Under the pieces are notes generated by a model that made no database searches, had not been told where the DNA came from, and saw nothing but the letters and a program-made list of their open reading frames with translations. DNA of 25,241 nucleotides from positions 1-25,241 of the forward strand of contig JAGNUJ010000007.1 in assembly GCA_017987055.1 (NCBI GenBank). The letters run 5' to 3'. Position numbers and translations under genes: made by a program. Positions 5,065-20,536 of this stretch are shown here, one piece after another. Source of the DNA: Giesbergeria sp. (GTDB taxonomy: Bacteria > Pseudomonadota > Gammaproteobacteria > Burkholderiales > Burkholderiaceae_C). The stretch's first letter is position 1; each line of letters starts with the position of its first letter.

Positions 5065-5075
5065 TAATAAGAGTG

Positions 5076-5128
5076 TTTTAGGCCTCTAGCGCAATAGATA
5101 CGTGCGCTAGTAGCTATTATTTTTGTAG
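5076..5128. repeat. Repeat copy A (hairpin-forming, intergenic)
   Basis: Intergenic member of the AT-rich repeat family described in the findings. Arms CTAGCGC (5086-5092) and GCGCTAG (5104-5110) form a perfect 7-bp stem with an 11-nt loop, followed by TAGCTATTATTTTTG. It shares 16 of 17 positions (5076-5092) with a stretch inside the RNA methyltransferase gene (19924-19940), and ATACGTGCG (5098-5106) with a stretch inside dxr (10449-10457). It lies 12 nt upstream of the DadA-like start codon and could form a hairpin in that gene's leader. Confidence 0.65.
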
Positions 5129-5224
5129 TAATAAATCGATCTTTAGGCCGACATCTGGCGTCGCATCATCGTGCAAGTTGGCCATATCGGTGCCGGACGA
5201 TGGTGGGGCTGTAGAGTATCGGTG

Positions 5225-5233
5225 TGCTAAAAT
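5225..5233 (+). promoter_or_regulatory. Predicted extended -10 promoter of rpsB
   Basis: TGC followed by TAAAAT (5228-5233) fits an extended -10 element (TGn plus hexamer). No good -35 hexamer is found 16-18 bp upstream, which extended -10 promoters can tolerate. Predicted transcription start is about 5239-5241, giving a leader of about 118 nt before rpsB. Confidence 0.55.
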
Positions 5234-5239
5234 CTTGCG

Positions 5240-5357
5240 GCTTTGCTGGACTGAATAAAGCAAAGTAAATCGCAAACCAGCCCTATCAAGGTGTTGCTCG
5301 CCCCACAGGCCGCAATGAACTGGCTGGATTTTAGACCCAACCTTTAGAGAGTTTTAT
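5240..5357 (+). promoter_or_regulatory. Structured rpsB 5' leader (candidate S2 autoregulatory element)
   Basis: Two helices can be drawn by eye. The first is CTTTGCT (5241-5247) with AGCAAAG (5259-5265), a perfect 7-bp stem with an 11-nt loop. The second is CCAGCC (5277-5282) with GGCTGG (5322-5327), enclosing about 39 nt. The AGAGAG ribosome-binding site (5346-5351) follows. In gammaproteobacteria the rpsB leader is bound by S2 to repress rpsB-tsf. Whether this leader works the same way is inference; no sequence match to the enteric element is claimed. Confidence 0.45.
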
Positions 5358-6125
5358 ATGTCCGTAACCATGCGCGAAATGCTTGAAGCCGGTGTCCACT
5401 TCGGTCATCAAACCCGTTTCTGGGATCCCAAGATGGCTCCCTACATCTTCGGCCACCGCAACAAGATTCACATCATCAACTTGGAAAAATCGCTGCCCCT
5501 GCTGCAGGAAGCGACCAAGTTCATCAAGCAACTGGCGGCCAACGGCGGCACGATCATGATGGTCGGCACCAAGCGCCAAGCCCGTGACACCATTGCTGCA
5601 GAAGCTGCACGCGCTGGCGTGCCGTTTGTCAACCAGCGTTGGTTGGGCGGCATGATGACCAACTTCAAGACCGTCAAGACCTCGATCAAGCGCCTCAAAG
5701 ACATGAAGACCCAGCAAGAAGCCGGTCTGGAGTCGCTGAGCAAAAAAGAACAGCTGATGTTCACCCGCGAAATCGAGAAGCTGGAAAAAGACATCGGCGG
5801 CATCCAAGACATGGCTGCGCTGCCCGATGCCATCTTCGTCATCGACGTTGGTTTCCACAAAATCGCCATCGCTGAAGCCAAGAAATTGGGCATCCCACTG
5901 ATCGGTGTGGTCGATACCAACCACTCGCCAGAAGGCATCAACTACGTTATCCCCGGTAACGACGACTCGGCCAAAGCGGTTGAGCTGTACGCCCGTGCGA
6001 TTGCTGACGCCATCATCGAAGGCCGTAAAAACGCTGGTAACGAAGTCGTTGCCGCTGCTGCTCCAGCTGCCGAAGGCGCTGACGAGTTTGTGGAAGTGGT
6101 AGAAGCGCCAGCGACTGCTGCATAA
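5358..6125 (+). CDS. rpsB: 30S ribosomal protein S2
   Basis: Binds the small subunit between head and body and is needed for S1 assembly. The 255 residues begin with [19 protein letters not shown], the conserved S2 start, and contain [15 protein letters not shown], the conserved [13 protein letters not shown] segment (about 94-106) and [20 protein letters not shown] near residue 190. The last 25 or so residues are an Ala- and acid-rich tail, a little longer than E. coli S2 (241 residues). The ATG follows an AGAGAG site by 6 nt. First gene of the cluster, with its own promoter and structured leader. Confidence 0.98.
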
Positions 6126-6148
6126 ACACAGGCTGCGCGACCCATCGC

Positions 6149-6188
6149 GAAAAAAAGCGGGGCTTACTGAGTGAGCCCCCTTTTTTTA
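6149..6188 (+). terminator. Rho-independent terminator/attenuator between rpsB and tsf
   Basis: GGGGCTTAC (6159-6167) pairs with GTGAGCCCC (6171-6179): a 9-bp stem with one G-U pair and a 3-nt loop, then C and seven T (6181-6187). A seven-A tract precedes the stem, so it could act in both directions. Because no strong tsf promoter is visible downstream, it probably allows partial read-through and lowers tsf and distal expression relative to rpsB. Confidence 0.8.
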
Positions 6189-6232
6189 TCTTGAATCGAT
6201 TGAACCCAATACCTGAATACGGAGAAACACAG

Positions 6233-7171
6233 ATGGCTGTAATTACCGCAAGCATGGTCGCCGAACTGCGCGCCAAAACCGATGCACCCATGATGGAGTG
6301 CAAAAAAGCTTTGACCGAAGCCGAAGGCAATATGGACAAAGCTGAAGAGCTGCTGCGCGTCAAGCTGGGCAGCAAAGCCGGCAAGGCCGCTTCGCGCATC
6401 ACTGCTGAAGGCGTCATTGCTAGCAAAATGAATGGCAACGTCGGCTCGCTGATTGAAGTTAACTGCGAAACCGACTTTGTCACCAAAAACGACAGCTTTT
6501 TGGCACTGGTGCAAGCCGCTGCCGATTTGGTTGCCGCGCACAATCCAGCCGACATCGCCGCTCTGGGCGCACTGCCTTACGAGCAAGACACTTTTGGTCC
6601 GACGTTGGAAGACGTGCGCAAGGGCTTGATTGGCAAGATTGGCGAGAACATGTCGTTCCGCCGCTTCCAATATTTTGGTGGCGCTGCTGCTACGACGCAA
6701 TTGGCTTCTTACTTGCACGGTACACGCATTGGCGTGGTGGTCGAGTACGAAGGTGACGCTACAGCGGCCAAAGATGTCGCCATGCACGTCGCTGCCATGA
6801 AGCCAGTTGCGCTGACCAGCGCGGATGTGCCAGCTGAGCTGATCGAAAAAGAGCGCTCGGTAGCTGCTGCCAAGGCTGCAGAAGATGCTGCTAAAGCCAC
6901 TGCCGAAGGCAAGCCTGTGCAGTCCGACGAAATCGTTGCCAAGCGCATCGAAGGCGGCGTACAGAAATTCTTGAAAGAAGTTTCCTTGTTCAATCAAGTC
7001 TTCGTTAAAGCGGCTGACGGCAAGCAAACCGTTGAGCAAATGCTCAAGGCCGCCAACACCACCATCAAGGGCTTTACCCTGTACGTGGTCGGCGAAGGCA
7101 TTGAGAAAAAGGTAGACGACTTCGCTGCTGAAGTGGCTGCCCAAGTCGCTGCCGCTCAGGCTGGCGCTTAA
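6233..7171 (+). CDS. tsf: Elongation factor Ts
   Basis: Guanine-nucleotide exchange factor that releases GDP from EF-Tu. The 312 residues start with an N-terminal UBA-like domain ([19 protein letters not shown]) and contain the EF-Tu contact motif [10 protein letters not shown] (80-89), followed by the core dimerisation subdomains. I chose the ATG at 6233 because GGAGAA lies 7 nt upstream and it matches the family N-terminus; an in-frame ATG at 6191 would add 14 unrelated residues. It is somewhat longer than E. coli EF-Ts (283). It lies downstream of rpsB across a terminator-like hairpin, the usual bacterial pairing. Confidence 0.97.
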
Positions 7172-7179
7172 TAAGCGAT

Positions 7180-7210
7180 AGCACTGCAGAGCGTTGCAGT
7201 GCTTTCCTTA
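7180..7210 (+). terminator. Hairpin after tsf, weak terminator
   Basis: AGCACTGCA (7180-7188) and TGCAGTGCT (7195-7203) form a perfect 9-bp stem with a 6-nt loop. The following stretch, TTCCTTAG, is a poor U-tract, so termination is likely weak; the stem may instead protect the upstream mRNA end. It starts 9 nt after the tsf stop codon and lies about 70 nt before pyrH. Confidence 0.5.
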
Positions 7211-7272
7211 GTTATCCCGCTGTTTCGCCCTTCCATTTACCATCCTTTTTTTTAATCCACGGAGAATTTCCC

Positions 7273-7995
7273 ATGCCCATTGCAACACCAGCCTACAAGC
7301 GCATTTTGCTCAAGCTGTCTGGTGAGGCGCTGATGGGCGAGGACTCCTTTGGCATCAATCGCACCACCATTGTGCGAATGGTGGAGGAAGTTGCCGAAAT
7401 CACCCGCATGGGGGTCGAAGTGGCGGTGGTGATTGGTGGCGGCAATATTTTTCGCGGTGTCGCTGGCGGTGCCGTCGGCATGGATCGCGCCACGGCCGAC
7501 TACATGGGCATGTTGGCCACGGTGATGAACGCCTTGGCGCTGGCCGATGCCATGAACAAACAAGGCCTGACCGCCCGTGTGATGTCCGCCATTTCGATTG
7601 ACCAAGTGGTCGAGCCGTATGTGCGCCCCAAAGCCTTGCAATACCTCGAAGAGGGCAAGGTGGTGATATTTGCCGGTGGCACGGGCAATCCGTTTTTCAC
7701 CACCGACACCGCTGCTGCGCTGCGCGGCGCGGAAATCGGTGCTGAGCTGGTGCTCAAAGCCACCAAGGTGGACGGCGTGTATACCGCCGATCCATTCAAA
7801 GATTCGACTGCCACGCGTTACACACAGCTCAGCTTTGATGAGGCGATGGCCGGTAACTTGGGCATCATGGATGCTACGGCGTTTGCCTTGTGCCGCGATC
7901 AAAAGCTGCCTGTCAAGGTCTTTTCCATCATCAAGCCCGGCGCGCTCAAGCGCGTGATCATGGGTGAAGATGAAGGTACGCTGGTTTACGCTTGA
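7273..7995 (+). CDS. pyrH: Uridylate kinase (UMP kinase)
   Basis: Phosphorylates UMP to UDP with ATP, the step feeding UTP and CTP synthesis; the bacterial enzyme is a hexamer, typically activated by GTP and inhibited by UTP. The 240 residues contain [11 protein letters not shown] (about 10-20), [12 protein letters not shown] (about 56-67) and [14 protein letters not shown] (about 163-176), all typical of the amino-acid-kinase fold, and match E. coli PyrH in length (241). GGAGAA lies 6 nt before the ATG. A pyrimidine-rich stretch with eight T (7246-7253) precedes it. It sits 10 nt upstream of frr. Confidence 0.97.
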
Positions 7996-8005
7996 GGGAA
8001 AAAAT

Positions 8006-8563
8006 ATGATTGCTGATATCAAAACCCATATGGAAACCAAGATGGATCAGTCCATCGCGGCGTTCAAGAACAATCTGCAAAGAATCCGCACCGGTCGCCC
8101 CAGCCCGGCGCTGCTCGACACCATCCATGTTGATTACTACGGCTCCATGGTGCCGCTGAGCCAAGTGGCCAACGTGCAGCTGCTCGACGCCCGCACCCTG
8201 AGCGTGCAGCCGTGGGAAAAAAACATGTCGGCCAAGATTGAAAAGGCCATCCGCGAGAGCGAGTTGGGTCTGAATCCAGCCTCGATGGGCGACATCATCC
8301 GCGTTCCGATGCCAGCCATGAGCGAAGAGCGCCGCAAAGAAATGACCAAGCTGGCGCGTAACGAAGCCGAAGGCGCAAAAATTGCCGTGCGCAACCTGCG
8401 CCGCGATGCCAATGAGTCGGTCAAAAAGCTAGTTAAAGACAAGCAGGTCTCGGAAGACGACCAAAAGCGCGCCGAAGCGGAGATCCAAAAAGTCACTGAC
8501 AAGCACATCGCCACCATCGACTCGCTGGTGGCTGCCAAAGAGCAAGACATCATGGCCGTCTAA
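8006..8563 (+). CDS. frr: Ribosome recycling factor
   Basis: With EF-G, splits post-termination ribosomes. The protein is 185 residues, exactly the usual length, beginning [16 protein letters not shown], with [11 protein letters not shown] (about 29-39), the conserved [20 protein letters not shown] (about 99-118) and a C-terminal helix ending in [17 protein letters not shown] chose the ATG at 8006 because GAGGGAA lies 5 nt upstream; an in-frame ATG at 7964 lies inside pyrH and would add 14 unrelated residues. Confidence 0.97.
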
Positions 8564-8597
8564 GGCCTGCCGGTGTATTGATTAGCTAGTTGATGGC

Positions 8598-9344
8598 GTG
8601 TTGAATTTTTCTGCTGGCGTGCCGCGCCATATCGCCATCGTGATGGACGGCAACGGTCGCTGGGCTAAGCGGCGCTTTTTGCCGCGACTGGCTGGCCATA
8701 AGCAAGGCGTCACAGCGCTGCGCCACTGCACCCAAGCCTGCGTTGAGCGCGGCGTAGCAGTTCTCACGGTTTTTGCTTTTTCCTCCGAAAACTGGAATCG
8801 CCCCGATGATGAAGTCGCGGGACTGATGGACTTGTTGGCACTGGCGCTATCGCGCGAGGTGCCGCAGTTGCGCAAAGACGGCGTGCGCCTGTACTTTGTT
8901 GGCAACCGCCAAGCACTGTCAGACAAGGTGCGCGCCGGCCTAGAGCAGGCCGAAGCCGCCACCGCGCACAACACACGCTTGGTGCTCAATGTGTGTTTTA
9001 ACTACGGTGGCCGCTGGGACATTGCCCAAGCCGCCGCCACGCTGGCCGCACGCGGCGACGCCATCACCGAAGCCAGCTTGAACGCCGCCATGGCGCTGGC
9101 CCATGTGCCCGACCCTGATTTGTTGATTCGTACCGGTGGCGAAATGCGCCTGAGCAATTTTTTGCTGTGGCAAGCCGCCTACAGCGAGCTGGTGTTCAGC
9201 GACCGGCTGTGGCCGGAATTTGACGCGGCCGCGCTGGACGAGGCGATTGCCGCCTACCAAGCGCGCGAACGCCGTTTTGGCAAAACCTCTGAGCAAATTG
9301 CGCCCTCATCGTCGTTGTCATTGCCCGATGCCGCGCGTGCCTGA
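8598..9344 (+). CDS. uppS: Isoprenyl transferase (undecaprenyl diphosphate synthase)
   Basis: Adds cis isoprene units from IPP to farnesyl diphosphate to make undecaprenyl diphosphate, the lipid carrier for peptidoglycan and O-antigen. The 248 residues contain HIAIVMDGNGRW (11-22) with catalytic Asp17, FAFSSENWNRP (about 58-68) and RTGGEMRLSNFLLWQAAYSE (about 178-197). The start is taken as GTG at 8598: an in-frame TAG at 8583 excludes a much earlier start, and the only close alternative is TTG at 8601. The ribosome-binding site is weak. It is followed 9 nt later by cdsA. Confidence 0.94.
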   Translation: MLNFSAGVPRHIAIVMDGNGRWAKRRFLPRLAGHKQGVTALRHCTQACVERGVAVLTVFAFSSENWNRPDDEVAGLMDLLALALSREVPQLRKDGVRLYFVGNRQALSDKVRAGLEQAEAATAHNTRLVLNVCFNYGGRWDIAQAAATLAARGDAITEASLNAAMALAHVPDPDLLIRTGGEMRLSNFLLWQAAYSELVFSDRLWPEFDAAALDEAIAAYQARERRFGKTSEQIAPSSSLSLPDAARA

Positions 9345-9353
9345 AAGGCCTCC

Positions 9354-10205
9354 ATGCTGAAACAGCGTGTTCTCACCGCTTTGGTGTTGCTGGCAATTTT
9401 GTTGCCAGCTTTGTTTTATCCCTCGCCCTTGCCGTTTGCCATCGTCGTGTTGGTGCTGATGGCCGCCGGCGCGTGGGAGTGGGGGCGCATGAACGGCTGG
9501 GGGCAAGTGGGCGCGCTGGCCTTGGGCGCGGTGTGCGTGTTGCTGTGCGCAGTGAGCGCCCAACTCGGTTGGCTGGAGCGTCCGCTGACCCATGTCTGGG
9601 TCATCGGCGGCGCGCTGTGGGTGCTGGGCGGCGCGGTTTTATTGCGCGCCGGCGTGCCCGGCTGGCCGCGTATTCCGGCTGCCGTGCGGCTGGTGGTCGG
9701 CGTGCTGGCGCTGTGGCTGGCGTGGCTGGCGGTGGTGCAGGCGCGCATGATTGGCATCAATTTTTTGCTGTCGGTGCTGGCCTTGGTCTGGGTGGCCGAC
9801 ATCAGCGCCTACTTTGCCGGTCGCGCGTTTGGTCTGCGCTTTACCAAAAATAAATTGGCCCCCGCCATCAGCCCCGGCAAAAGCTGGGAAGGCGTGTGGG
9901 GCGGCGCTGTCGGCGTGGTGGTGCTGGCCTGGGTCTGGGTGGCAGTCGATGCTGCCGGCCACACCAGCGTGCCGAGTTTTTATACCGTGCTGGCCAACAA
10001 AGGCTGGTGGCTGCTGCTGCTGGCCGCGCTGTTTATGACGGCGATGAGCGTCGCCGGTGATTTGATTGAATCGCTGATCAAACGCAGCGCCGGCGTCAAA
10101 GACAGCAGCCATTTGTTGCCCGGCCACGGCGGGGTGCTGGATCGCGTCGATGCGCTGCTGCCCACTTTGCCGCTGGCCTTGATGCTTTATTCCTTGGTGT
10201 CCTAA
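9354..10205 (+). CDS. cdsA: Phosphatidate cytidylyltransferase (CDP-diglyceride synthase)
   Basis: Inner-membrane enzyme that joins CTP and phosphatidic acid to CDP-diacylglycerol, the branch point to all phospholipids. The 283 residues are very hydrophobic, with about seven or eight membrane segments. The C-terminal family signature is intact: SLIKRSAGVKDSSHLLPGHG followed by GVLDRVD (about residues 239-265), as is NKLAPAISPGKSWEG. AAAGG precedes the ATG. Its stop codon is immediately followed by the dxr ATG, so translation is probably coupled. Confidence 0.95.
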   Translation: MLKQRVLTALVLLAILLPALFYPSPLPFAIVVLVLMAAGAWEWGRMNGWGQVGALALGAVCVLLCAVSAQLGWLERPLTHVWVIGGALWVLGGAVLLRAGVPGWPRIPAAVRLVVGVLALWLAWLAVVQARMIGINFLLSVLALVWVADISAYFAGRAFGLRFTKNKLAPAISPGKSWEGVWGGAVGVVVLAWVWVAVDAAGHTSVPSFYTVLANKGWWLLLLAALFMTAMSVAGDLIESLIKRSAGVKDSSHLLPGHGGVLDRVDALLPTLPLALMLYSLVS

Positions 10206-11402
10206 ATGCAGATAAAACAACGGCTGACGGTTTTAGGTTCTACCGGTTCCATCGGTGTCAGTACGCTGGACGTGGTGGCACGCCACCCGGAGCGCTTTGA
10301 GGTGTTTGCCCTCAGCGCTGCTACCCAAGTTGATGCTTTGTTGGCGCAATGTGCCCAGTTCAAGCCACGTTACGCGGTGATGGCCAGCGATGCTCATGCA
10401 GCGCTGCTGGAAGAGAAAATACAGTCAAATAGCCTTCAAACCCAAGTAATACGTGCGGTATCAGCTCTTGAAATCATAGCATCGCATCCAGAGGTGGATA
10501 CGGTGATGGGTGCCATCGTCGGCGCTGCGGGCTTAGCTCCCTGCTTGGCGGCGGCGCGCGCGGGCAAGCGCTTGCTGCTGGCCAATAAAGAAGCGCTGGT
10601 GGTCGGCGGTGAGCTGTTTATGCAAGCCGTGCGCGACGGCGGTGCCACGCTGCTGCCGATTGACAGCGAGCATTCGGCCATTTTTCAGTCATTGCCCGAA
10701 GACCCCCGCACCTGGGCGCAGCGCGTCGACAAAATTATTTTGACCGCCTCGGGCGGGCCGTTTCGCCAGCGCGCGCCCGATACGCTGCGCCACGTCACGC
10801 CCAGCCAAGCCTGCGCGCACCCCAATTGGGTGATGGGGCGCAAAATTTCTATCGACTCGGCCACCATGATGAACAAAGCGCTGGAAGTGATTGAGGCGCG
10901 CTATTTGTTTGGGCTGGCGCCGGACAAGCTGGACGTGGTGATCCACCCGCAAAGCGTCATCCATTCGATGGTGCAGTACCACGACACCTCGGTGGTGGCG
11001 CAGCTGGGCACGCCCGATATGCGCGTGCCGATTGCTTATGGCTTGGCTTGGCCTGAAAGAGTGGCTTCTGGGGCTACAGCCCTTGATTTCCATGCGCTGA
11101 GCGCTATGACTTTTGAGGCGATTGACGACCACGGCCATCCAGAGCGCTTCCCCGGTTTGCGCTTGGCATGGGAGGCGCTGGCCGCGCCCACCGGCACCAC
11201 GGCGGTGCTGAACGCGGCCAACGAGGTGGCGGTGGCGGCGTTTTTAGATGAACGCATCCGTTTTGACCAAATTCACGCGGTCAATGAGGCAACTTTGGCG
11301 GCGGTGCTGCCCTCCAACCCCGATTCACTCGAAGCCTTGTTGGCGCTGGACGCCAGCGCCCGCGCCTACGCTGAGCGCAATGTCGCCAGCATGGCCGTCT
11401 GA
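10206..11402 (+). CDS. dxr: 1-deoxy-D-xylulose 5-phosphate reductoisomerase
   Basis: Converts DXP to 2-C-methyl-D-erythritol 4-phosphate with NADPH, the committed step of the non-mevalonate isoprenoid pathway that feeds UppS. The 398 residues carry the NADPH loop VLGSTGSIG (9-17), [11 protein letters not shown], the metal-site [29 protein letters not shown] and LNAANEVAV near the end. The start directly abuts the cdsA stop. Residues about 72-93 are encoded by an AT-rich block with ATA, GTA, TCA and CTT codons unlike the rest of the gene. It aligns without a gap to E. coli Dxr from memory, so length is unaffected (see repeat copy D). Confidence 0.97.
10426..10479 (+). repeat. Repeat copy D (inside dxr)
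   Basis: AT-rich 54-bp segment in frame within dxr. It shares ATACGTGCG (10449-10457) with copy A, a CAAATAGCCT start resembling the GGCCTCTA start of copies A and B, and a TCAGCT...TAG end. Its GCT codon (10464) is in the same register as in copies B and C. Confidence 0.5.
11063..11117 (+). repeat. Possible repeat copy E (inside dxr)
   Basis: GGGCTACAGCCCTT (11071-11084) matches copy C in lpxB at 13 of 14 positions, and TGCGCT and GCTAT follow at matching spacing. However, the encoded residues LDF..LSA.TF are conserved in the DXR family, so an inserted repeat is doubtful here and chance or codon convergence is possible. Confidence 0.3.
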
Positions 11403-11431
11403 GTGCTGTTTTTGTTGCGGGAGCTTTCGCC

Positions 11432-12796
11432 ATGTTGATGACGGTTGTGGCTTTTGTGGTGGCGCTGGGTATCTTGATTGCCGTGCACGAGTACGGCCAC
11501 TACCGAGTGGCCGTCGCTTGCGGTGTCAAGGTGTTGCGCTTTTCGGTCGGCTTTGGCCAGCCGCTGCTGCGCTGGCAGCCCAAGGGCTCGCCGACGGAGT
11601 TTGTGATTGGTGCCTTTCCGCTGGGCGGCTATGTGCGCATGTTGGACGAGCGCGAAGCACCGGTGCCCGAGCACGAGCGGCATTTGGCTTTCAACACCCA
11701 GCCGCTGCGCGCCCGCGCGGCCATCGTCGCTGCCGGGCCGGTGGCCAATTTGCTGCTGGCCGTTTTGCTCTATGCCAGCGTCAACTGGATGGGTATGCAA
11801 GAGCCGATGGCTTATCTGGCGCGCCCGGTGCAGGGATCTATTGCCGAATCCGCCGGCCTGCAGGGCGGCGAGTTGGTGCGCAATGCCGCCTTAGGCGGTG
11901 ACGAAGTGCGCCCAGTGCGCTCGTTTGACGACCTGCGCTGGATGTTGACGCGCGGCGCGCTGGACGGCCAATCGGTGCGGCTGGAGCTGGAAAGCACGCC
12001 GGGCGCCTCGCTGCGCACAGTGGTGCTGCCGCTGGGCGAGATTGATGCCAGTCAAGCTGACGCGCAGCTACTCTACAAAGTCGGCCTCGTCGGCCCGTGG
12101 ACGCGCCCGGTGATTGGTGAAGTGATGGACGGCGGCGCTGGCCAGCGCGCCGGTCTGCGCAAGGACGACTTGGTGCTGCAAGTAGGCGATGCCCAGGTAC
12201 ACGACGGTCAGCAGTTGCGGATGTTGATTCGCGCTGCGGTGCGTGATGGCCAACCGCTGAGCCAGCCGTGGCTGATTGAGCGCGATGGTCGCCAGCTGAC
12301 GTTAGAGGTCGCGCCCGATGTGCACACCGATGACAGCGGCACGGTGGGTCGCATCAGCGCCTTTGTTGGCGAGCCACCCAAATTCACCACCGTGCAATAC
12401 GGCCTGCTTGAAGGCTTGTGGAATGGCGTGACGCGCACTTGGGAGGTGTCGGTGCTGTCGCTGCGCATGATGGGGCGCATGGTCATTGGCGAGGCTTCGC
12501 TGAAGAATCTGAGCGGTCCGCTGACGATTGCCGATTACGCCGGGCGCTCGGCCAGCATGGGTTTGACACAGTATTTGGTGTTTTTAGCGCTGATTAGCGT
12601 CAGTTTAGGCGTGCTTAACCTGCTGCCGCTGCCTGTCTTGGACGGGGGGCACCTGATGTATTATCTTTGGGAGGCGATCACGGGAAAAAGCCCGTCTGAT
12701 CTCTGGATGGAGCGCTTGCAGCGCGGCGGTGTTGCGGTGCTGCTGCTCATGATGTCCATCGCCATGTTCAACGATATCACCCGGCTTTTTGGCTAA
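11432..12796 (+). CDS. rseP: Site-2 intramembrane metalloprotease RseP
   Basis: Inner-membrane zinc protease that makes the second cut in the anti-sigma-E factor, releasing the envelope stress sigma factor; it also clears remnant signal peptides. The 454 residues show the zinc motif HEYGH (19-23) in the first membrane helix, two periplasmic PDZ domains (about 110-200 and 210-300) and the third zinc ligand in NLLPLPVLDGGH (about 392-403) near the last helices. A GGGAG site precedes the ATG. It lies 29 nt after dxr and just before bamA, matching its role in outer-membrane protein homeostasis. Confidence 0.95.
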   Translation: MLMTVVAFVVALGILIAVHEYGHYRVAVACGVKVLRFSVGFGQPLLRWQPKGSPTEFVIGAFPLGGYVRMLDEREAPVPEHERHLAFNTQPLRARAAIVAAGPVANLLLAVLLYASVNWMGMQEPMAYLARPVQGSIAESAGLQGGELVRNAALGGDEVRPVRSFDDLRWMLTRGALDGQSVRLELESTPGASLRTVVLPLGEIDASQADAQLLYKVGLVGPWTRPVIGEVMDGGAGQRAGLRKDDLVLQVGDAQVHDGQQLRMLIRAAVRDGQPLSQPWLIERDGRQLTLEVAPDVHTDDSGTVGRISAFVGEPPKFTTVQYGLLEGLWNGVTRTWEVSVLSLRMMGRMVIGEASLKNLSGPLTIADYAGRSASMGLTQYLVFLALISVSLGVLNLLPLPVLDGGHLMYYLWEAITGKSPSDLWMERLQRGGVAVLLLMMSIAMFNDITRLFG

Positions 12797-12804
12797 CTTT
12801 TCGT

Positions 12805-12825
12805 CCACCGTGATTACAACGGTGG
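12805..12825 (+). other. Hairpin between rseP and bamA
   Basis: CCACCGT (12805-12811) and ACGGTGG (12819-12825) form a perfect 7-bp stem with a 7-nt loop. There is no T-tract, so it is not a terminator. It ends 14 nt before the chosen bamA ATG, where no standard Shine-Dalgarno sequence is visible. Confidence 0.5.
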
Positions 12826-12839
12826 CACCCGCTTCATTC

Positions 12840-15137
12840 ATGAAAAAAAACCTCCATCGCTTTGGCGTACGCACCGCGTGTGCCGCAGCCGCCATGATTT
12901 TTGCTGCTCAGGCGGCCTGGGCACTGGAGCCCTTCAAAGTGCAAGACATTCGCATTGAGGGGCTACAACGCGTGGAGCCAGGCACTGTTTTTGCCTCGAT
13001 GCCGATGCGCGTCGGTGACGATTACAACGACGAAAAAGGCGCTGCTGCCATTCGCTCTTTGTTTGCACTGGGCTTGTTCAAGGACGTGCGCTTAGAGGCC
13101 AACGGCAACGTGCTGGTGGTGGTGGTGCAAGAGCGCCCCACCATTGCCGACGTCGAATTTGCCGGCTCGCGTGAGTTTGACAAAGAGGCGCTCAAGCGCA
13201 GCATGCGCGATGTCGGCCTTAGCGATGGCCGCCCATTTGACAAAGCTCTGGCTGATCGTGCTGAGCAAGAGCTCAAGCGCCAGTACTTGAACAAGAGCTT
13301 TTATGCAGTCGATGTGGTCACCACCGTGACCCCTATCGAGCGCAACCGCGTCAATCTGACTTTCACCGTTATCGAAGGTGCGCCAGCGCGCATCAAAGAG
13401 ATGCGCATTGTCGGCAACAAAGCTTTCAGTGAGTCCACGCTGACTGGTTTGTTTGAGCAAGACACTGGCGGTTGGCTGAGCTGGTACACCAAGTCCGACC
13501 GCTACGCCCGCTCTAAACTCAATGCCGATTTGGAAACCTTGCGCTCCTACTATTTGCAGCGCGGCTACCTTGAGTTTCGTATCGACTCGACACAAGTGGC
13601 GATGTCTCCCGATAAAGAAAGTATCTCCGTCGCTGTTAACGTGACGGAAGGTGAGCGCTATGTAGTTTCGGGCGTACAGCTTGAAGGCAACTACCTCGAT
13701 CGCGAGGATGAGTTCAAGTCGCTGGTAAAGATTGTTCCGGGCGAGCCCTACAACGCCGATCAGGTGGCTGAGACGACTAAGGCATTTTCAGACCATTTCA
13801 GTAACTTTGGTTTTGCTTTTGCGCGTGTCGAGGCCGTGCCAGAAATTGACCGCCAAAATAACCGCGTTGCTATCGTGGTGCAGGCTGAGCCAAGCCGGCG
13901 TGCTTATGTGCGGCGCATCAACGTGGCCGGTAACAACCGCACCCGCGACGAAGTAGTGCGGCGCGAATTTCGCCAGTTTGAAGCCTCGTGGTATGACGGC
14001 GACAAAATCAAGCTCTCGCGCGACCGTGTCGATCGCTTGGGCTATTTCACCGATGTGAACGTGGAGACACAAGAAGTGCCAGGCGCGCCCGATCAGGTTG
14101 ATTTGGTCGTTACCGTGGTCGAAAAGCCGACGGGCTCGTTGCAGTTAGGCGCTGGTTTTTCGAGTGCTGAAAAAGTGTCGTTGTCGTTTGCGGTCAAACA
14201 AGAAAACGCCTTTGGCTCGGGTAACTACCTAGGCGTTGAAGTCAACACCAGCAAGTACCGCCGCACTTTGGTGTTGAGCACCACAGACCCGTATTTCACG
14301 GCCGATGGCGTCTCGCGCACGTTGGATTTGTACTACCGCACCGACAAGCCTTACGAAGACCAAGGCGGCAACTACGAGCTGGTGACAAAGGGAGCGAGCA
14401 TCCGTTTTGGCGTGCCGTTTAGCGAAACCGACACGGTTTTCTTTGGTGCCGGTGTCGAAGGTGTATCGATCAAGCCCGGCACTAATATTCCGGCAGCGTA
14501 TTTGGACTACGCCGAGCGTTTTGGCTACAACAGTACCTCGGTGCCGCTGACAGTGGGTTGGTCGCGCGATGACCGCGATAGCGCTTTGGCACCCAATTCG
14601 GGGCGTTACCAGCGGCTCAATTCAGAGTGGTCTATTGCGGGTGATGCGCGTTATGTGCGAGCCAATTATCAATACCAGCAATATGTGCCGTTGAACAAGA
14701 AATTCACTTTGGCATTTAATGGCGAGCTGGGCTGGGGCAAGGGCATGAGCGACCGTCCTTTCCCGGTGTTTAAGAACTTTTATTCGGGTGGTCTTGGCTC
14801 GGTGCGCGGCTTTGACCAAGGTACGCTCGGGCCGCGCGATGTGACCGGTGCCTCGCTGGGCGGCCCGAAAAAGTTGACCCTCAATGCTGAGTTGATGGCA
14901 CCATTTCCCGGTGCGGGTAACGATCGTACATTGCGTGTATTTACCTTTGTCGATGTGGGTAACGTCTATGGCGACAACGAGAAAATAACCTTTAGTGATA
15001 TGCGTGCCTCTGCTGGCGTGGGCTTGAGCTGGATTTCTCCGCTCGGTCCTTTGCGTATTGCCTTTGCCCAGCCGGTGCGTAAGTTTGCCGGCGATAGAAT
15101 CCAGAAACTGCAATTCCAGATTGGAACATCTTTCTAA
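12840..15137 (+). CDS. bamA: Outer membrane protein assembly factor BamA
   Basis: Omp85-family core of the BAM complex, which folds beta-barrel proteins into the outer membrane. The 765 residues begin with a signal peptide (KK near the N-terminus, hydrophobic Ala stretch, cleavage after AAWA at about 28), followed by five POTRA domains (about 30-425; the first begins FKVQDIRIEGLQRVEPG) and a 16-strand barrel. The barrel contains the lid-loop motif VRGF (about 655) and ends in Phe, the usual outer-membrane signal. I chose the ATG at 12840 because it starts the signal peptide directly; an in-frame TTG at 12789 overlaps rseP. The ribosome-binding site is poor. The stop overlaps the skp start by 1 nt. 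Confidence 0.95.
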   Translation: MKKNLHRFGVRTACAAAAMIFAAQAAWALEPFKVQDIRIEGLQRVEPGTVFASMPMRVGDDYNDEKGAAAIRSLFALGLFKDVRLEANGNVLVVVVQERPTIADVEFAGSREFDKEALKRSMRDVGLSDGRPFDKALADRAEQELKRQYLNKSFYAVDVVTTVTPIERNRVNLTFTVIEGAPARIKEMRIVGNKAFSESTLTGLFEQDTGGWLSWYTKSDRYARSKLNADLETLRSYYLQRGYLEFRIDSTQVAMSPDKESISVAVNVTEGERYVVSGVQLEGNYLDREDEFKSLVKIVPGEPYNADQVAETTKAFSDHFSNFGFAFARVEAVPEIDRQNNRVAIVVQAEPSRRAYVRRINVAGNNRTRDEVVRREFRQFEASWYDGDKIKLSRDRVDRLGYFTDVNVETQEVPGAPDQVDLVVTVVEKPTGSLQLGAGFSSAEKVSLSFAVKQENAFGSGNYLGVEVNTSKYRRTLVLSTTDPYFTADGVSRTLDLYYRTDKPYEDQGGNYELVTKGASIRFGVPFSETDTVFFGAGVEGVSIKPGTNIPAAYLDYAERFGYNSTSVPLTVGWSRDDRDSALAPNSGRYQRLNSEWSIAGDARYVRANYQYQQYVPLNKKFTLAFNGELGWGKGMSDRPFPVFKNFYSGGLGSVRGFDQGTLGPRDVTGASLGGPKKLTLNAELMAPFPGAGNDRTLRVFTFVDVGNVYGDNEKITFSDMRASAGVGLSWISPLGPLRIAFAQPVRKFAGDRIQKLQFQIGTSF

Positions 15138-15655
15138 TGACCTCCTTTTCACGCCATCTCCCCCTAGCCCTTGTGTTGGGTTCGTTGGTTGCCGTAGCAC
15201 CAGCCTACGCAGAAGAATTTAAGGCCGGCTTTGTCAACACCGATCGCGTGTTCCGCGAGGCCAATACCGCTAAAGCGGCGCAGGCCAAGCTGGAGCAAGA
15301 GTTTTCGCGCCGCGAAAAAGAGCTGATCGACATGGGTAACACGCTCAAGACAGCTACCGAAAAATTTGAGCGCGATGCCCCGACTTTGGCTGAGAGCCAG
15401 CGCACGACGCGCCAGCGCCAGTTGGTTGACCAAGACCGTGACTTTCAGCGCAAGCGCCGTGAGTTCCAAGAAGACCTGAACGCCCGCAAAAACGAAGAAC
15501 TGGCGCAAGTGCTAGAGCGCGCCAACAAGGTGGTCAAGCAAGTTGCTGAAGCTGAAAAGTACGATGTGATCTTGCAAGAAGCCGTCTATATCAACCCCAA
15601 GCACGACATCACTGACAAGGTGCTCAAGGCTTTGAATGCTGCGCCTGCCAAATAA
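15137..15655 (+). CDS. skp: Periplasmic chaperone Skp/OmpH
   Basis: Trimeric periplasmic holdase that escorts unfolded outer-membrane proteins to BAM. The 172 residues have a signal peptide with probable cleavage after PAYA (about residue 25), a short beta segment (KAGFVNTDRVFRE), then a long charged helical hairpin (about 45-140) rich in Lys, Arg, Glu and Gln, and a final segment, YDVILQEAVYINPKHDITDK, typical of OmpH. The ATG overlaps the bamA TAA (TAATG), so translation is probably coupled. Confidence 0.93.
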   Translation: MTSFSRHLPLALVLGSLVAVAPAYAEEFKAGFVNTDRVFREANTAKAAQAKLEQEFSRREKELIDMGNTLKTATEKFERDAPTLAESQRTTRQRQLVDQDRDFQRKRREFQEDLNARKNEELAQVLERANKVVKQVAEAEKYDVILQEAVYINPKHDITDKVLKALNAAPAK

Positions 15656-15685
15656 ACACTGGCAGCACACTGGGGCGGTGCCAAG

Positions 15686-16675
15686 ATGAGCCTGCGTCTT
15701 GCGCAATTTATTGAGGCGCTTGGCGGAACACTCGAAGGCAATGCGGCGCAGAGCATTAACGCTTTAGCGCCACTAGACAGTGCCGGTCCCCAAGACCTGA
15801 GCTTTCTGAGCAATCCGCGTTACCAGCAACAACTGGCCGCCTCCCAGGCGGCCTGTGTCATTGTGGCACCTGCTCAGCGCCAGTTGGCGATGGCGCGTGG
15901 TGCTTGCATCGTTGCTGACGACCCCTACGTTTACTTCGCCCGTGCCACCCAGCTTTGGAAAAAGCACCACCGCCCGTTGGTTTTGGCTGGTGTACATCCG
16001 AGTGCGGTAGTCGATGCCACGGCTGTCGTTCACCCCAGCGCATCAATTGGTCCGCTGTGCGTGGTCGAACGCGGCGCGCACATTGGCGCCAACACCGTAC
16101 TCAAATCGCGTGTCACTGTGGGCGAGGACTGCCGTATCGGCGCGCGTTGCATCCTGCACGCTGGCGTGGTGATTGGCGCTGATGGCTTTGGCTTTGCCCA
16201 GCAGCAAGGGGTGTGGATCAAGATTGAGCAGCTCGGCGCAGTGCGCATTGGTGACGATGTCGAAATTGGTGCCAACACTTGTGTTGACCGAGGGGCATTG
16301 CAAGACACGGTGATTGAAGACGGTGTCAAGCTCGATAACTTGGTGCAGGTTGGGCACAACGTGCACATTGGTCGCCACAGCGCGATGGCTGGCTGCGTTG
16401 GCATTGCCGGCAGCGCCACGATTGGCGCGCATTGCACCGTCGGCGGCGGTGGCATTGTGCTAGGTCACCTGACGCTAGCCGATAACGTCCACATCTCAGC
16501 TGCTACGGTGGTGACACGCTCTTTGCCCAAGTCGGGGCACTACACCGGCATGTTTCCCATAGATGACAATGCGCATTGGGAAAAAAACGCTGCCACCCTC
16601 AAACAATTGCACAGCCTGCGCGAGCGCATCAAGGCACTAGAGCAGTCTCTTAAAGCCCGAGCTACAGCAGCATGA
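15686..16675 (+). CDS. lpxD: UDP-3-O-acyl-glucosamine N-acyltransferase
   Basis: Third step of lipid A synthesis: transfers a 3-hydroxyacyl chain from acyl-ACP to the amino group of UDP-3-O-acyl-glucosamine. The 329 residues have an N-terminal uridine-binding domain (about 1-100), a left-handed beta helix of hexapeptide repeats (about 102-280) and a C-terminal helix (about 297-325). His224 in QVGHN corresponds to the catalytic His of E. coli LpxD, and GADGFGF (164-170) is conserved. No strong ribosome-binding site is seen before the ATG at 15686. It lies 30 nt after skp and 16 nt before fabZ. Confidence 0.96.
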
Positions 16676-16691
16676 ACGGAAGAATAATTCG

Positions 16692-17147
16692 ATGATGGAT
16701 ATCCACGCAATTCTCAAGCAGCTACCGCACCGCTATCCATTTTTGCTAGTGGACAAGGTGCTTGAGCTCGAGCGCAACACCCGCATTAAGGCGATTAAAA
16801 ACGTCACTTTCAACGAGCCCTACTTTATGGGGCACTTTCCCGGCCACCCGGTGATGCCGGGCGTGTTGATTTTGGAAGCACTCGCTCAAGCCGCCGGCTT
16901 GCTGGCCTTTGATGCGATGGGCAAAGTGCCCGATGCCGATAATATTTATTACTTTGTCGGCATCGACGGTGCGCGTTTCAAACGCCCGGTCGAGCCGGGT
17001 GATCAGCTGATTTTGTCGGTCACCATTGACCGTGTGCGCGGCGGTATTTGGAAGTTCAAAGGCGTGGCCAGCGTGATGGACGAGGTCGCCTGCGAAGCCG
17101 AGCTGATGTGTACCATGCGCAACGTGAGCGGTGTAAAAGCAGATTAA
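16692..17147 (+). CDS. fabZ: 3-hydroxyacyl-ACP dehydratase FabZ
   Basis: Dehydrates 3-hydroxyacyl-ACP to trans-2-enoyl-ACP in fatty acid elongation. It competes with LpxA and LpxD for 3-hydroxyacyl-ACP, so its place between them is meaningful. The 151 residues form one hot-dog domain with [11 protein letters not shown] (11-21), catalytic His48 in [11 protein letters not shown] and Glu62 in LEALAQAAG. The double ATG (16692 and 16695) leaves the exact start open by one codon; GGAAG lies upstream. It matches the usual family length of 144-155. Confidence 0.97.
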
Positions 17148-17170
17148 CCAGTAAGAGGCGTTCGTTTGCT

Positions 17171-17959
17171 GTGAGCTTGATTCACCCCACCGCCCTGATT
17201 GCCGAGGGTGCCCGCCTAGACCCCAGCGTCAGCGTCGGGCCGTATGCCGTGATTGGTGCCAACGTCACCATTGGAGCCAACACGACTATTGGCGCGCACT
17301 GCGTGATTGAAGGCCACACCACCCTTGGCCAAGACAACCGCGTTTTTCAGTTCGCCTCGCTGGGCGGCGCACCGCAGGACAAAAAATACGCCGGCGAGCC
17401 AACGCGTTTGGTGATCGGTGACCGCAACACCGTGCGCGAGTTTTGCACCTTCAACACCGGCACCACGCAAGACGACGGCGTGACCCGGATTGGCGACGAC
17501 AACTGGATCATGGCCTACGTGCACATTGCGCACGATTGCGTTGTCGGCAACCAAACCATCCTCGCCAACAACGCCACCTTGGCCGGCCATGTGCAGATCG
17601 GTGACTACGCCATCATTGGCGGCTTGACCGGCTTGCACCAATTCACCCAAGTGGGTGCGCACGTCATGGCCGGTTTTGCCAGCCACATCTCGCAAGACGT
17701 GCCGCCGTTCATGATGGTCGATGGCAACCCGCTGGCGGTGCGCGGCTTGAACCTTGAAGGCCTGCGCCGGCGCGGGTTTTCGCCCGAACGCCTCAGCGCC
17801 ATCAAGCAAATGCACCGCCTGCTGTACCGCCAAGGGCTGACGCTGGATGCTGCCCGCAGCGCCATCGCCGCGCTGCCCGAGCAGCACCCGCAAGCGGCTG
17901 CCGACATTGCCGCCATGCTCGATTTTTTAAACACCTCCGCGCGCGGCATTGCGCGCTGA
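17171..17959 (+). CDS. lpxA: UDP-N-acetylglucosamine acyltransferase
   Basis: First step of lipid A synthesis: transfers a 3-hydroxyacyl chain from ACP to the 3-OH of UDP-GlcNAc. The 262 residues, identical in length to E. coli LpxA, form a left-handed beta helix (about 1-185) and a C-terminal helical domain (about 190-262). His121 in HIAHD corresponds to catalytic His125 of E. coli. At the acyl-length ruler position (E. coli Gly173) this protein has Phe169 in AHVMAGFAS, suggesting a shorter acyl chain. The GTG at 17171 gives the family N-terminus SLIHPTALI with AGAGG upstream; an in-frame ATG at 17048 lies inside fabZ. Confidence 0.95.
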
Positions 17960-17963
17960 CGCC

Positions 17964-19124
17964 ATGACCGACTCCACCCCCCGCGTCGCAATGGTGGCGG
18001 GCGAAACCTCGGGCGATTTGCTCGCTGGCTTGCTGCTCGATGGCCTGAAAAACGTCTGGCCGGAGGTGGCTGCCCACGGCATTGGCGGCGCGCAGATGGC
18101 CCAGCGCGGTTTTGCTGCGTGGTGGCCGAGCGAAAAATTGGCCGTCCACGGCTACAGCTTTGAGGTGCTGCGCCGCCTGCGCGAGATCATCGGCATCCGC
18201 AAACAACTGCGCACGCGCCTGTTGGCCGACAAGCCCGATGTGTTTATTGGCGTCGATGCGCCCGATTTCAATTTGGGGTTGGAAGCCGATTTGCGCGCTG
18301 CGGGCGTCAAAACCGTGCATTTTGTCTGCCCGTCGATTTGGGCGTGGCGTGCCGAGCGCATCGAAAAAATCCGCCGCAGCGTCGACCATGTGCTGTGCAT
18401 CTTTCCGTTTGAGCCGGAGTTGCTGGCGCGCCACGGCATTGCTGCCACTTACGTCGGTCACCCACTGGCGGCGGTGATACCGATGGAGCCGGACCGCGCA
18501 GCAGCCCGCAAACAACTGGGTTTGGCTGACGACGCCCCAGTGCTGGCGATTCTTCCCGGCAGCCGCCGCGCTGAGGTGCAATACATCACTTCAGGGTTTT
18601 TTCGGGCTGCAGCCCTTATACAGCGTGCGCTACCAGCTATCAAAATAATAGTTCCAGCGGTGCCGGCGCTGAAAGCGCGCATCGAGCACATCGCCCAGCA
18701 ATGCGGTTTGGGCGATGCGCTGCAGGTGGTGGCCGGCCAATCGCACACGGTTTTAGCCGCCTGCGATGTGACGCTGATTGCCAGCGGCACCGCCACGCTG
18801 GAGGCCGCGCTGTTCAAGCGCCCGATGGTGATTGGCTACCGCATGCACGCGCTGAGCTGGCGCCTGATGCGGCGCAAGCAGTTGCAGCCGTGGGTGGGGC
18901 TGCCGAATATTTTGTGCGGTGATTTCGTCGTGCCCGAGCTGATTCAAGATGCCGCCACGCCGCAAGCGCTGGCCGCCGCCGTGCTGCAATGGTTTGACGC
19001 GCGCCAGCACGACCCGCAGCGCCTCGCCGCGCTGCAAGAGCGCTTTACCGCCCTGCACCACAGCCTGCTGCGCAACACCCCCCAATTGGCCGCCGAGGCG
19101 ATTCGCAAAGTGATTTATGACTGA
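17964..19124 (+). CDS. lpxB: Lipid-A-disaccharide synthase
   Basis: Glycosyltransferase (family GT19) that joins UDP-diacylglucosamine and lipid X to the lipid A disaccharide at the inner face of the membrane. The 386 residues contain [13 protein letters not shown] (10-22), GVDAPDFN with Asp98 matching the catalytic Asp of E. coli Lpx[10 protein letters not shown] (121-129), LPGSRRAEV (197-205) and ASGTATLE (273-280). The ATG at 17964 lies 4 nt after the lpxA stop; there is no Shine-Dalgarno sequence, so translation is probably coupled. Residues 210-232 are encoded by an AT-rich block with rare ATA, CTA and CCA codons (repeat copy C), yet align without a gap to E. coli LpxB from memory. The stop overlaps rnhB by 8 nt. 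Confidence 0.96.
18594..18657 (+). repeat. Repeat copy C (inside lpxB)
   Basis: AT-rich segment in frame within lpxB. Positions 18634-18653 match 19959-19978 in the RNA methyltransferase gene at 19 of 20 bases, and GGGCTGCAGCCC (18604-18615) is a perfect 12-bp palindrome. It encodes part of the segment around PAIKIIV, against AAIKIVV in copy B, so the reading frame is the same. Confidence 0.65.
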
Positions 19125-19734
19125 ACAACACTCCCTGCCGTGGTACCCCGCCGGCTTGATGGCCGGGGTGGACGAGGCCGGGCGCGGCCCGTTGGCCGGG
19201 CCGGTGGTTGCAGCTGCCGTCATCTTGGACGAGCGCCAACCGATTGCCGGCTTGGGCGACTCGAAAAAACTCACCGCTGCCCGGCGCGAAGCGCTGTTTG
19301 ACGAAATCCGTGCCAAAGCGCTGTGCTGCAGCATTGCCGAAGCCAGCGTCGAAGAAATCGACCGCCTCAACATCTTGCAAGCCACGCTGCTGGCCATGCG
19401 CCGCGCGGTGCTGGGGCTGCGCTTGAAGCCGGTGATGGTGTTGGTCGATGGCAACCGCCTGCCGCTGCTGGACGTGCCGGCCGAAGCCATCGTCAAAGGC
19501 GATGCGCTGGTGCCGGCGATTTCGGCCGCCTCCATCTTGGCCAAAGTCCACCGCGACCGCTGGTGCGCACAGGTCGATAGCGACTACCCGGAATACGGCT
19601 TTGCCGGTCACAAAGGCTATGGCACCGCTGCGCATTTGGCCGCCCTGCGCGCGCATGGCGCGACGCCGCTGCACCGCAGCTCGTTTGCACCGGTGCGGGC
19701 GCAATTGCTGCTGCGCCCGCTTAACTCTGTTTGA
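19117..19734 (+). CDS. rnhB: Ribonuclease HII
   Basis: Cleaves RNA in RNA-DNA hybrids and single ribonucleotides embedded in DNA. The 205 residues contain [19 protein letters not shown] (17-35), which carries the first catalytic Asp-Glu pair (Asp19, Glu20), then [17 protein letters not shown], an acidic VDGN segment (about 111-114) and [26 protein letters not shown] typical of type II enzymes. The ATG overlaps the end of lpxB (ATGACTGA). Its position after lpxB is common in proteobacteria. Confidence 0.96.
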
Positions 19735-19738
19735 CTGC

Positions 19739-20536
19739 ATGACCACACCCGCCATCACCCACATCCAGTCGCGTGACAACGTCTTTGTTAAAGACCTGCG
19801 CCGCCTAGCGCAAGACAGCAGCGCCTACCGCAAACAAGGCCGCGTCTGGTTGGAGGGCGATCACTTGTGCCGCGCCGCGCTGGCGCGAGGTTTAGTGCCC
19901 GCCATTGCGGTATTTTCAGAGTCTTTTTGGCCTCTAGCGCCCGTGCAGTATGCGCAAGCAGCTATCAAAATAGTAGTTTTGGCCGATGCGCTGTTTGCGT
20001 CTATCAGCGGACTGGAGTCACCCGCGCAGATGGGCTATCTGATGGACTTGCCGGCTACGCCAGCGCTGCAGCCGACACTGGCCGCAGTGGTGCTGGATCG
20101 GGTGCAGGACGCGGGCAACGTTGGCTCGATTTTGCGCAGCGCCGCCGCGTTCGGCTTTGGCCAAGTGCTGGCGCTCAAGGGTACGGCGGCGCTGTGGGCG
20201 CCCAAGGTGCTGCGTGCTGGCATGGGCGCGCATTTTGGCCTGCGACTGATCGAGGCTCTGGAGCCAGACGCACTGGCTGCGCTGCAAATGCCACTCATCA
20301 TCACCAGCTCGCACCAAGGCGCGCTAGTGCAGCACCAGTGCCTGCCGTGGCCGTGCGCTTGGGCGCTGGGCCACGAAGGCCAAGGCGTGGGCGAGGCGGT
20401 GGCGGCACGCGCGCAGCTGTCGGTGCGCATTGGCCAGCCGGGTGGCGAAGAGTCGCTCAACGTGGCGGCGGCGGCAGCGATTTGCTTGCACGCCAGCGCG
20501 GTGAGCGCTGCACCCGAGTCAACACTTGCCCATTGA
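19739..20536 (+). CDS. SpoU/TrmH-family RNA 2'-O-methyltransferase
   Basis: SAM-dependent methyltransferase of the SPOUT (alpha/beta knot) class, probably acting on rRNA or tRNA. The 265 residues have an N-terminal substrate-binding domain (about 8-105) and three SpoU motifs: LDRVQDAGNVGSILRSAAAFG (119-139, catalytic Arg in the N-x-G-x-x-x-R pattern), WALGHEGQGV (208-217) and SLNVAAAAAICL (239-250). The ATG at 19739 lies 4 nt after the rnhB stop; longer in-frame starts lie inside rnhB. Residues about 62-81 are encoded by an AT-rich block with TCT, CTA, ATA and GTA codons (repeat copy B). The target nucleotide cannot be told from sequence. Confidence 0.9.
   Translation: MTTPAITHIQSRDNVFVKDLRRLAQDSSAYRKQGRVWLEGDHLCRAALARGLVPAIAVFSESFWPLAPVQYAQAAIKIVVLADALFASISGLESPAQMGYLMDLPATPALQPTLAAVVLDRVQDAGNVGSILRSAAAFGFGQVLALKGTAALWAPKVLRAGMGAHFGLRLIEALEPDALAALQMPLIITSSHQGALVQHQCLPWPCAWALGHEGQGVGEAVAARAQLSVRIGQPGGEESLNVAAAAAICLHASAVSAAPESTLAH
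19924..19980 (+). repeat. Repeat copy B (inside the SpoU methyltransferase gene)
   Basis: The best link between copies. The left part, 19924-19940, matches intergenic copy A at 16 of 17 bases, and the right part, 19959-19978, matches copy C in lpxB at 19 of 20 bases. It is in frame, with the GCT codon at 19961 in the same register as copies C and D. Confidence 0.7.

Follow-up and report, generated by a model that had tools for sequence, protein, structure and literature searches.

A long degenerate DNA motif at fixed positions within core genes of Comamonadaceae, with a possible role in DNA recognition

The stretch of DNA analyzed here (the window) comprises positions 1 to 25,241 of contig JAGNUJ010000007.1 in the Giesbergeria sp. 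assembly GCA_017987055.1, and it carries four copies of a long AT-rich motif, all on the plus strand, one of them between genes and three within core genes. Copy A (5063 to 5138) occupies the gap between dadA, on the minus strand, and rpsB, on the plus strand. The other copies lie in frame within plus-strand genes: copy D (10414 to 10489) near codon 86 of dxr (10206 to 11402; Pfam PF02670, PF08436, and PF13288), copy C (18586 to 18661) within lpxB (17961 to 19124, with an inferred start; PF02684), where it encodes ALPAIKIIV, and copy B (19911 to 19986) within a SpoU-family RNA methyltransferase gene (19736 to 20536, with an inferred start in a frame open from 19448; PF00588), where it encodes AQAAIKIVV. 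A profile built solely from a different genome of the genus, G128, scores copies A, B, C, and D at 65.2, 63.7, 45.0, and 43.0 bits, respectively.

An earlier note on this DNA had linked the four copies in a chain of partial matches, and these matches are present as described: the left ends of A and B are identical at 16 of 17 bases, the right ends of B and C at 19 of 20, and A and D share ATACGTGCG. The motif is about 70 to 76 bp long, exceeding the roughly 50 bp given in that note. Over 76 aligned columns, the numbers of identical positions are 45 (A-B), 52 (B-C), 43 (A-D), 39 (A-C), 36 (C-D), and 35 (B-D), compared with a mean of 19.9 (standard deviation, 4.1; maximum, 34) for 2,000 random pairs of stretches from the window.

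The window copies belong to a very large dispersed family. A search of the window's own assembly, which spans 1.68 Mb and is 61% complete, gave 33 occurrences of the pattern CAGCTATCAAAA and none of its reversed form, and GCAGCTATCAAAA is present in 42 of 120 genomes of the family, the reversed form being found in none of them. As exact words undercount the copies, we scanned a systematic sample of the complete 3.97-Mb genome G128 (20 stretches of 20 kb, 400 kb in all; 63% GC) with position weight matrices. The first (PWM1) was built from 95 rows taken from the window's own genome, including its lpxB and SpoU copies, from genome G013, and from other genomes with a single match each, G128 being excluded. 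It found 69 positions of at least 20 bits, compared with 1 in the reversed sequence, and swapping synonymous codons within called genes lowered the 69 to a mean of 49.4 (20 shuffles; maximum, 54). Once overlaps were removed, 65 copies were left, 13 of them fully genic, which corresponds to about 650 per 3.97-Mb genome, or about 1 copy per 6 kb. The second matrix (PWM2), built from 53 copies of the G128 sample only, gave 67 copies versus 1 in the reversed sequence; this count rests partly on training data, and that of 65 from PWM1 is independent. Both scans were ungapped and therefore miss gapped copies. Around lpxB, 21 sequences (the window and 20 further stretches) held 59 matches and no reversed ones. 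The genome-wide profile search that the earlier note had called for thus yields matches in excess of both reversed and codon-shuffled sequence, and its expectations of a dispersed family common to Comamonadaceae and of true copies inside core genes, here far above chance, are borne out.

By PWM2, the copies in the G128 sample, for which a simple script supplied the gene calls, divide into 31 intergenic, 19 lying across a gene end, and 17 fully genic. Of the last, 8 are sense and 9 antisense, and 15 share one codon phase. Among the 49 nongenic copies for which both neighbors were known, 33 lie in codirectional, 13 in convergent, and 3 in divergent gaps, although 29% of all bases in gaps of at least 60 bp belong to divergent ones. 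One 20-kb stretch of the sample (L244; G128 positions 3400001 to 3420000) is the sole one devoid of a copy and possibly consists of acquired DNA. A strand polarity like that of KOPS was considered for G013, where among the matches listed nearly all are on the plus strand over 2.5 Mb, and was rejected, as the full listing for a longer word mixes strands. Elsewhere in the same genome (G013:C1:1018261-1018600), three copies of AGCTATCAAA stand at an exact spacing of 165 bp, possibly as a small tandem array, and longer inverted-pair forms (TGATAGCTGCTAGCGC ... GCGCTAGCAGCTATCA), resembling two facing right ends, occur near position 1500 of loci L012, L018, L022, and L026.

The 53 of the 65 G128 copies that scored at least 33 bits align over 76 columns free of gaps, with the consensus nnAAnTTnnnnTnAAATnnGCCTCTAGCGCTTnnnnnnCAAGCGCTAnCAGCTATnAAATnnATAGCAA; the gap-free alignment is partly built in, because the scan that found the copies was itself ungapped. 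Information is distributed across about 70 columns, with the strongest blocks at GCGC and AGCTAT and with no short core of about 9 to 12 bp. The GC content of the copies averages 40% (range, 30 to 51%) versus 63% for the sample, and their AT content shows some periodicity at 8 and at 10.5 to 11 bp. What is conserved is the DNA sequence, not an RNA fold. The hairpin that the earlier note proposed for copy A can be drawn, but compensating changes in the 53 G128 copies do not support its pairing: paired bases fill 72.4% of the cells of the stem versus 72.3% in shuffled alignments, and two-sided changes are no more common than in the shuffles. RNAalifold predicted just two pairs for these copies, and a second dyad, GCTAT-N7-ATAGC, gave no covariation signal either. 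No Rfam family reached its gathering score in the window, and a search with a single copy and its flanks returned one subthreshold match (mir-1743, 18.5 bits). A role at the mRNA level is unlikely, given that genic copies occur in both orientations. Those in the sense orientation frequently specify a similar peptide, A-x-x-A-I-K-x-[IV].

None of the three genic copies of the window, in dxr, lpxB, and the SpoU gene, is an insertion: orthologues that carry the motif are as long as those that lack it. The motif is free of indels in all 104 lpxB rows (24 from the genus and 80 from named genomes, 100 of them distinct; the named loci and our own genome set overlap) and in all 67 dxr rows, and 4 of 101 SpoU rows contain one. 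Alignments to the closest solved chains of LpxB and Dxr, which we take to be those of E. coli, are gap-free at the motif. Other genic copies behave similarly. In the window's own genome, the rmlB copy shows no gap against the best solved RmlB chain, the ksgA copy aligns gap-free with one solved relative and differs from a second by one residue, and the rmlD copy has a two-residue difference from a solved relative; in G128, the copy in an acyl-CoA dehydrogenase gene shows a two-residue difference, and that in priA coincides with an alignment break and was excluded from the judgment of length. The 20 or more extra residues expected of an inserted motif were seen in no examined genic copy that could be judged. 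An in-frame extra stretch of 66 bp in the lpxB gene of G013 (L277, about 2440 to 2510) was considered as a candidate insertion and rejected, as its sequence is not the motif. Two irregularities of these genes were noted in passing: in G128, the reading frame of dxr breaks past a stretch of G's (L286, near 5950 to 5990), perhaps because of an error in sequencing or of a genuine frameshift, and the lpxB matches of L077 and L078 (G125 and G130) contain one internal TAG stop, possibly because the match extends upstream of the gene.

The positions of the genic copies are fixed across genera. In 80 named loci (1.41 Mb), PWM1 found 156 matches versus 1 in reversed sequence, and 122 of these fall in mapped genes of the window: 22 in dxr, 45 in lpxB, and 51 in SpoU, in each gene at one place and in one phase, with the remaining four comprising two in lpxA, an additional one in lpxB, and an antisense one in SpoU. 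With PWM2 and a threshold of 15 bits, the motif was present at its place in 36 of 80 lpxB, 42 of 79 SpoU, and 22 of 67 dxr named orthologues, the last count identifying copy D, the weakest by eye, as a true member of the family; control windows from the same genes had the motif in 0 of 2,045 cases (best score, −10.4). The genic copies are found in loci labeled Acidovorax, Simplicispira, and Curvibacter, in most labeled Polaromonas, in many labeled Rhodoferax, and in some labeled Comamonas; none of the eight loci labeled Hydrogenophaga has one. The gap that holds copy A contains the motif in only two other genomes, G132 and G124, among the stretches fetched, which suggests that intergenic copies turn over faster. 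A weak candidate for a fifth window copy, elsewhere in dxr (11053 to 11128, plus strand; 19.9 bits), is shared with G132 (23 bits) and with no other listed stretch and may be a chance match. About 800 to 900 bp beyond carB, the motif recurs in many of the 80 named loci, perhaps at another fixed position within or close to the genes that follow.

At the motif, codons deviate from the background of the host gene more strongly than in almost any other window of that gene. Compared with nonoverlapping windows of the same gene (SpoU being taken from the start at 19736), the departure was exceeded in 0 of 198 windows for SpoU, 0 of 327 for lpxB, and 1 of 333 for dxr. Over 17 to 18 motif-rich genomes, codon identity to the window's own genome was 0.83 at the motif versus 0.57 elsewhere in SpoU (0 of 205 windows above), 0.68 versus 0.52 in dxr (26 of 337 above), and 0.68 versus 0.59 in lpxB (64 of 326 above), a strong contrast in SpoU and a lesser one in the other two genes. 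The genic copies are old, and their codon choice is unusually constrained.

Presence of the motif is a property of whole genomes. We counted copies with a sequence-only model (R1) that scores up to 150 candidates in each genome, so that counts in rich genomes are lower bounds. Within the genus, 22 of 26 genomes had at least 150 and G135 had 146, compared with none in G120, 6 in G141, and 2 in G134. Thirty genomes of the family were picked from the 120 (16 with at least eight copies of GCAGCTATCAAAA and 14 with none), and of these, 15 were rich (140 to at least 150), G029 had 9, G014 had 1, and 13 had none. The state of lpxB follows this division: the motif reached 15 bits by PWM2 in 34 of 37 motif-rich versus 1 of 17 motif-poor genomes, and exceeded 20 bits by PWM1 in 36 of 37 versus 1 of 17, with two genomes of the genus, G134 (lpxB in fragments) and G142 (no lpxB match), left out of the comparison. 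Three rich genomes, G112, G057, and G126 (the last at 14.4 bits), and one poor genome, G029, depart from this rule. In the named loci, likewise, the three genes carry or lack the motif jointly (Fisher's exact test, P = 5e-6 to 1e-10); neither the Fisher nor the Mann-Whitney tests used here correct for kinship.

Two members of the genus, G120 and G141, are particularly informative. In motif-rich stretches of the genus, the motif is at its place in all 18 that hold dxr, in 18 of 19 for lpxB, and in 18 of 18 in which the SpoU gene was found, whereas the stretches of G120 and G141 have it at none of the three places. There the motif codons have been replaced, with 4 of 21 identical in dxr, 4 of 18 in lpxB, and 7 of 18 in SpoU, whereas codon identity outside the motif is ordinary in all three genes (0.54, 0.56, and 0.48, respectively) and the peptides at the motif are related but encoded by other codons. 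An LpxB tree computed after removal of the motif columns places G120 and G141 as sisters and groups them with the motif-rich G135 at a support of 100/99, and this group nests among other members of the genus with weak support (81/67). The state of the motif requires seven changes on the tree, and at least two of these are forced by well-supported branches. The simplest reading is a secondary, genome-wide loss in G120 and G141. The earlier note had taken the genic copies for palindromic repeats found unusually inside essential genes; because they add no length, occupy identical codon positions in distant genera, are jointly missing from G120 and G141, and form a palindrome that lacks covariation, they instead behave like a DNA motif maintained in place.

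The motif is thus abundant and rigidly spaced, occurs in either orientation, did not enter the examined genes by insertion, is conserved at fixed codon positions, and is kept or lost genome-wide. Its joint presence and loss, which includes all three genic places, points to a trans-acting DNA-recognition system, and we infer that a trans-acting factor recognizes it. We tentatively favor, with a little less than even confidence, the view that the copies represent one degenerate, rigidly spaced recognition motif of about 70 bp in double-stranded DNA that works like an uptake sequence. By analogy with such sequences, drift would yield partial matches wherever protein or intergenic sequence tolerates them, DNA bearing the motif might enter the cell and recombine with the chromosome more readily than other DNA, biased uptake and replacement would improve and hold the copies, and loss of the bias would let all copies decay together. 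That Comamonadaceae possess an undescribed system for recognizing self DNA through uptake sequences, whose motif of about 70 bp would be unusually long and would be maintained at hundreds of chromosomal sites, fixed codons of essential genes among them, with loss of the whole in some lineages, is a slightly more tentative proposal, to which we give somewhat less than an even chance.

Several observations weigh against a role like that of an uptake sequence. The competence protein ComEC was found in 23 of 26 genomes, the three misses being incomplete assemblies, and the pilus protein PilO in 46 of 47, and neither separates motif-rich from motif-poor genomes, a pattern that by itself speaks neither for nor against uptake. 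Known uptake signal sequences (USS) of Pasteurellaceae and DNA uptake sequences (DUS) of Neisseriaceae have a core of 9 to 10 bp with AT flanks rather than about 70 bp, and at 1,465 or 1,892 copies per genome they are denser than our motif. Because of its length, its sparseness, and the failure of ComEC and PilO to track it, we say only that the motif works like an uptake sequence and do not claim membership. The number of copies per 20 kb in G128 has a variance-to-mean ratio of 0.73, not clearly nonrandom, and the avoidance of divergent gaps would equally suit a topological or terminator role. Finally, small length differences do occur at some genic copies: the four SpoU rows mentioned above have 4 to 6 extra residues within the motif, distant solved SpoU relatives differ there by 4 to 5 residues, and the copy in the aminopeptidase N gene (pepN) of G128 lies in a variable stretch with a difference of about 7 residues.

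The main rival is a chromosome-architecture site, bound by a nucleoid, segregation, or topology protein (e.g., through gyrase- or IHF-like wrapping of phased AT tracts) and directly selected at each place. We regard it as a serious explanation, though one with clearly less than an even chance of being right. A motif that acts at the DNA level in either orientation, lies on the chromosome in every sampled stretch of G128 but one, shows the AT periodicity given above, and is depleted in divergent gaps would suit such a protein, and its genome-wide loss would fit loss of the protein that binds it; one-by-one selection on some 650 degenerate sites would be demanding, however, and neither a macrodomain nor a strand pattern was seen, although neither was tested in depth, and no such protein is known. 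A role in RNA, whether as a terminator, a small RNA site, or a structured RNA, is far less probable: a stem can be drawn and divergent gaps are depleted, but the stem lacks covariation, the window has no Rfam match, and 9 of the 17 genic G128 copies are antisense.

Spread by transposition is a reading that we consider unlikely. Under it, the motif would be a mobile palindromic repeat of the REP (repetitive extragenic palindromic), MITE (miniature inverted-repeat transposable element), BRE (Beta-proteobacterial repeat element), or Rickettsia type whose genic copies were later overwritten by gene conversion. Hundreds of dispersed copies, about three-quarters of them not fully genic, an imperfect palindrome, the long inverted-pair forms in L012 and L018, the three G013 copies spaced at 165 bp, and the restriction of copy A to a few lineages are all compatible with mobility. 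Against it stand the lack of 20 or more extra residues in any judged genic copy and the fixed genic positions across genera, and transposases and plasmids give it little help. A Y1 transposase domain (Y1_Tnp, with the RAYT subfamily not separated) was present in 42 of 47 genomes irrespective of their motif state and was absent from the motif-rich G130 and G085. G013 has 20 Y1 transposase matches, far above the other genomes searched. Four Comamonadaceae plasmids (290 kb), from hosts not known to be motif-rich, held two copies, one at each end of a single cobN gene, a scarcity that would also suit an uptake sequence if the hosts are motif-rich, and a BLAST search with the consensus matched one plasmid record, the one with these cobN copies, and no phage record. 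Chance or protein-level convergence, in which helix-to-strand peptides were by accident encoded alike, could have drawn on the similar peptide of sense genic copies and is already refuted: reversed controls gave 0 versus 59 and 1 versus 67 matches, synonymous shuffling lowered the number of matches, antisense and intergenic copies exist, and the related peptides of G120 and G141 use other codons.

A system that recognizes the motif would add one more bacterial family to those with a genome-wide recognition motif, maintained through molecular drive or through dedicated DNA-binding machinery. Comparison of the motif-rich G135 with its sister genomes G120 and G141, which have lost the motif, offers a natural way to track down the trans-acting factor. 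For annotation, repeat copies within essential genes need not be insertions, and codon choice at the genic copies is shaped by something besides translation.

Several known repeat families resemble the motif in part. The palindromic elements of Rickettsia lie in frame inside protein genes as insertions relative to the orthologues; our motif shares the palindromic character and the in-frame position but is not inserted. The nearest published name that we found is BRE (PMC3110155), which is likewise dispersed in Comamonadaceae, among others, and mostly intergenic, with some copies wholly coding. In the same source, however, Bordetella copies of BRE have a GC content of 63.7 to 78.9% versus 40% for our motif, and BREs form tandem arrays of variable number. 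Polaromonas JS666 has the most BREs reported there, and yet its locus in our set (L131) is devoid of the motif in dxr, lpxB, and the SpoU gene and has one 25.8-bit match beyond carB. GC content and distribution suggest that the two differ. REPs, as defined in PMC3733652, also number in the hundreds, are mostly extragenic, and form imperfect palindromes, whereas our motif is longer, has no pairing backed by covariation, has a quarter of its copies fully genic, and is not tracked by Y1 transposases. Among the open-access papers listed by our literature searches, we found no earlier description of the motif. The closest working model is that of USS and DUS. USS are reported to evolve by point mutation and not to be inserted elements (PMC7811141), and uptake sequences belong to the core genome, are mostly intergenic, and occupy permissive places while being highly conserved (PMC2397512). 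Our motif resembles them in having many chromosomal copies both inside and outside genes, in not being inserted, in its lineage specificity, in its bias toward the core genome, and in combining permissive places with strong conservation (PMC7811141, PMC2397512).

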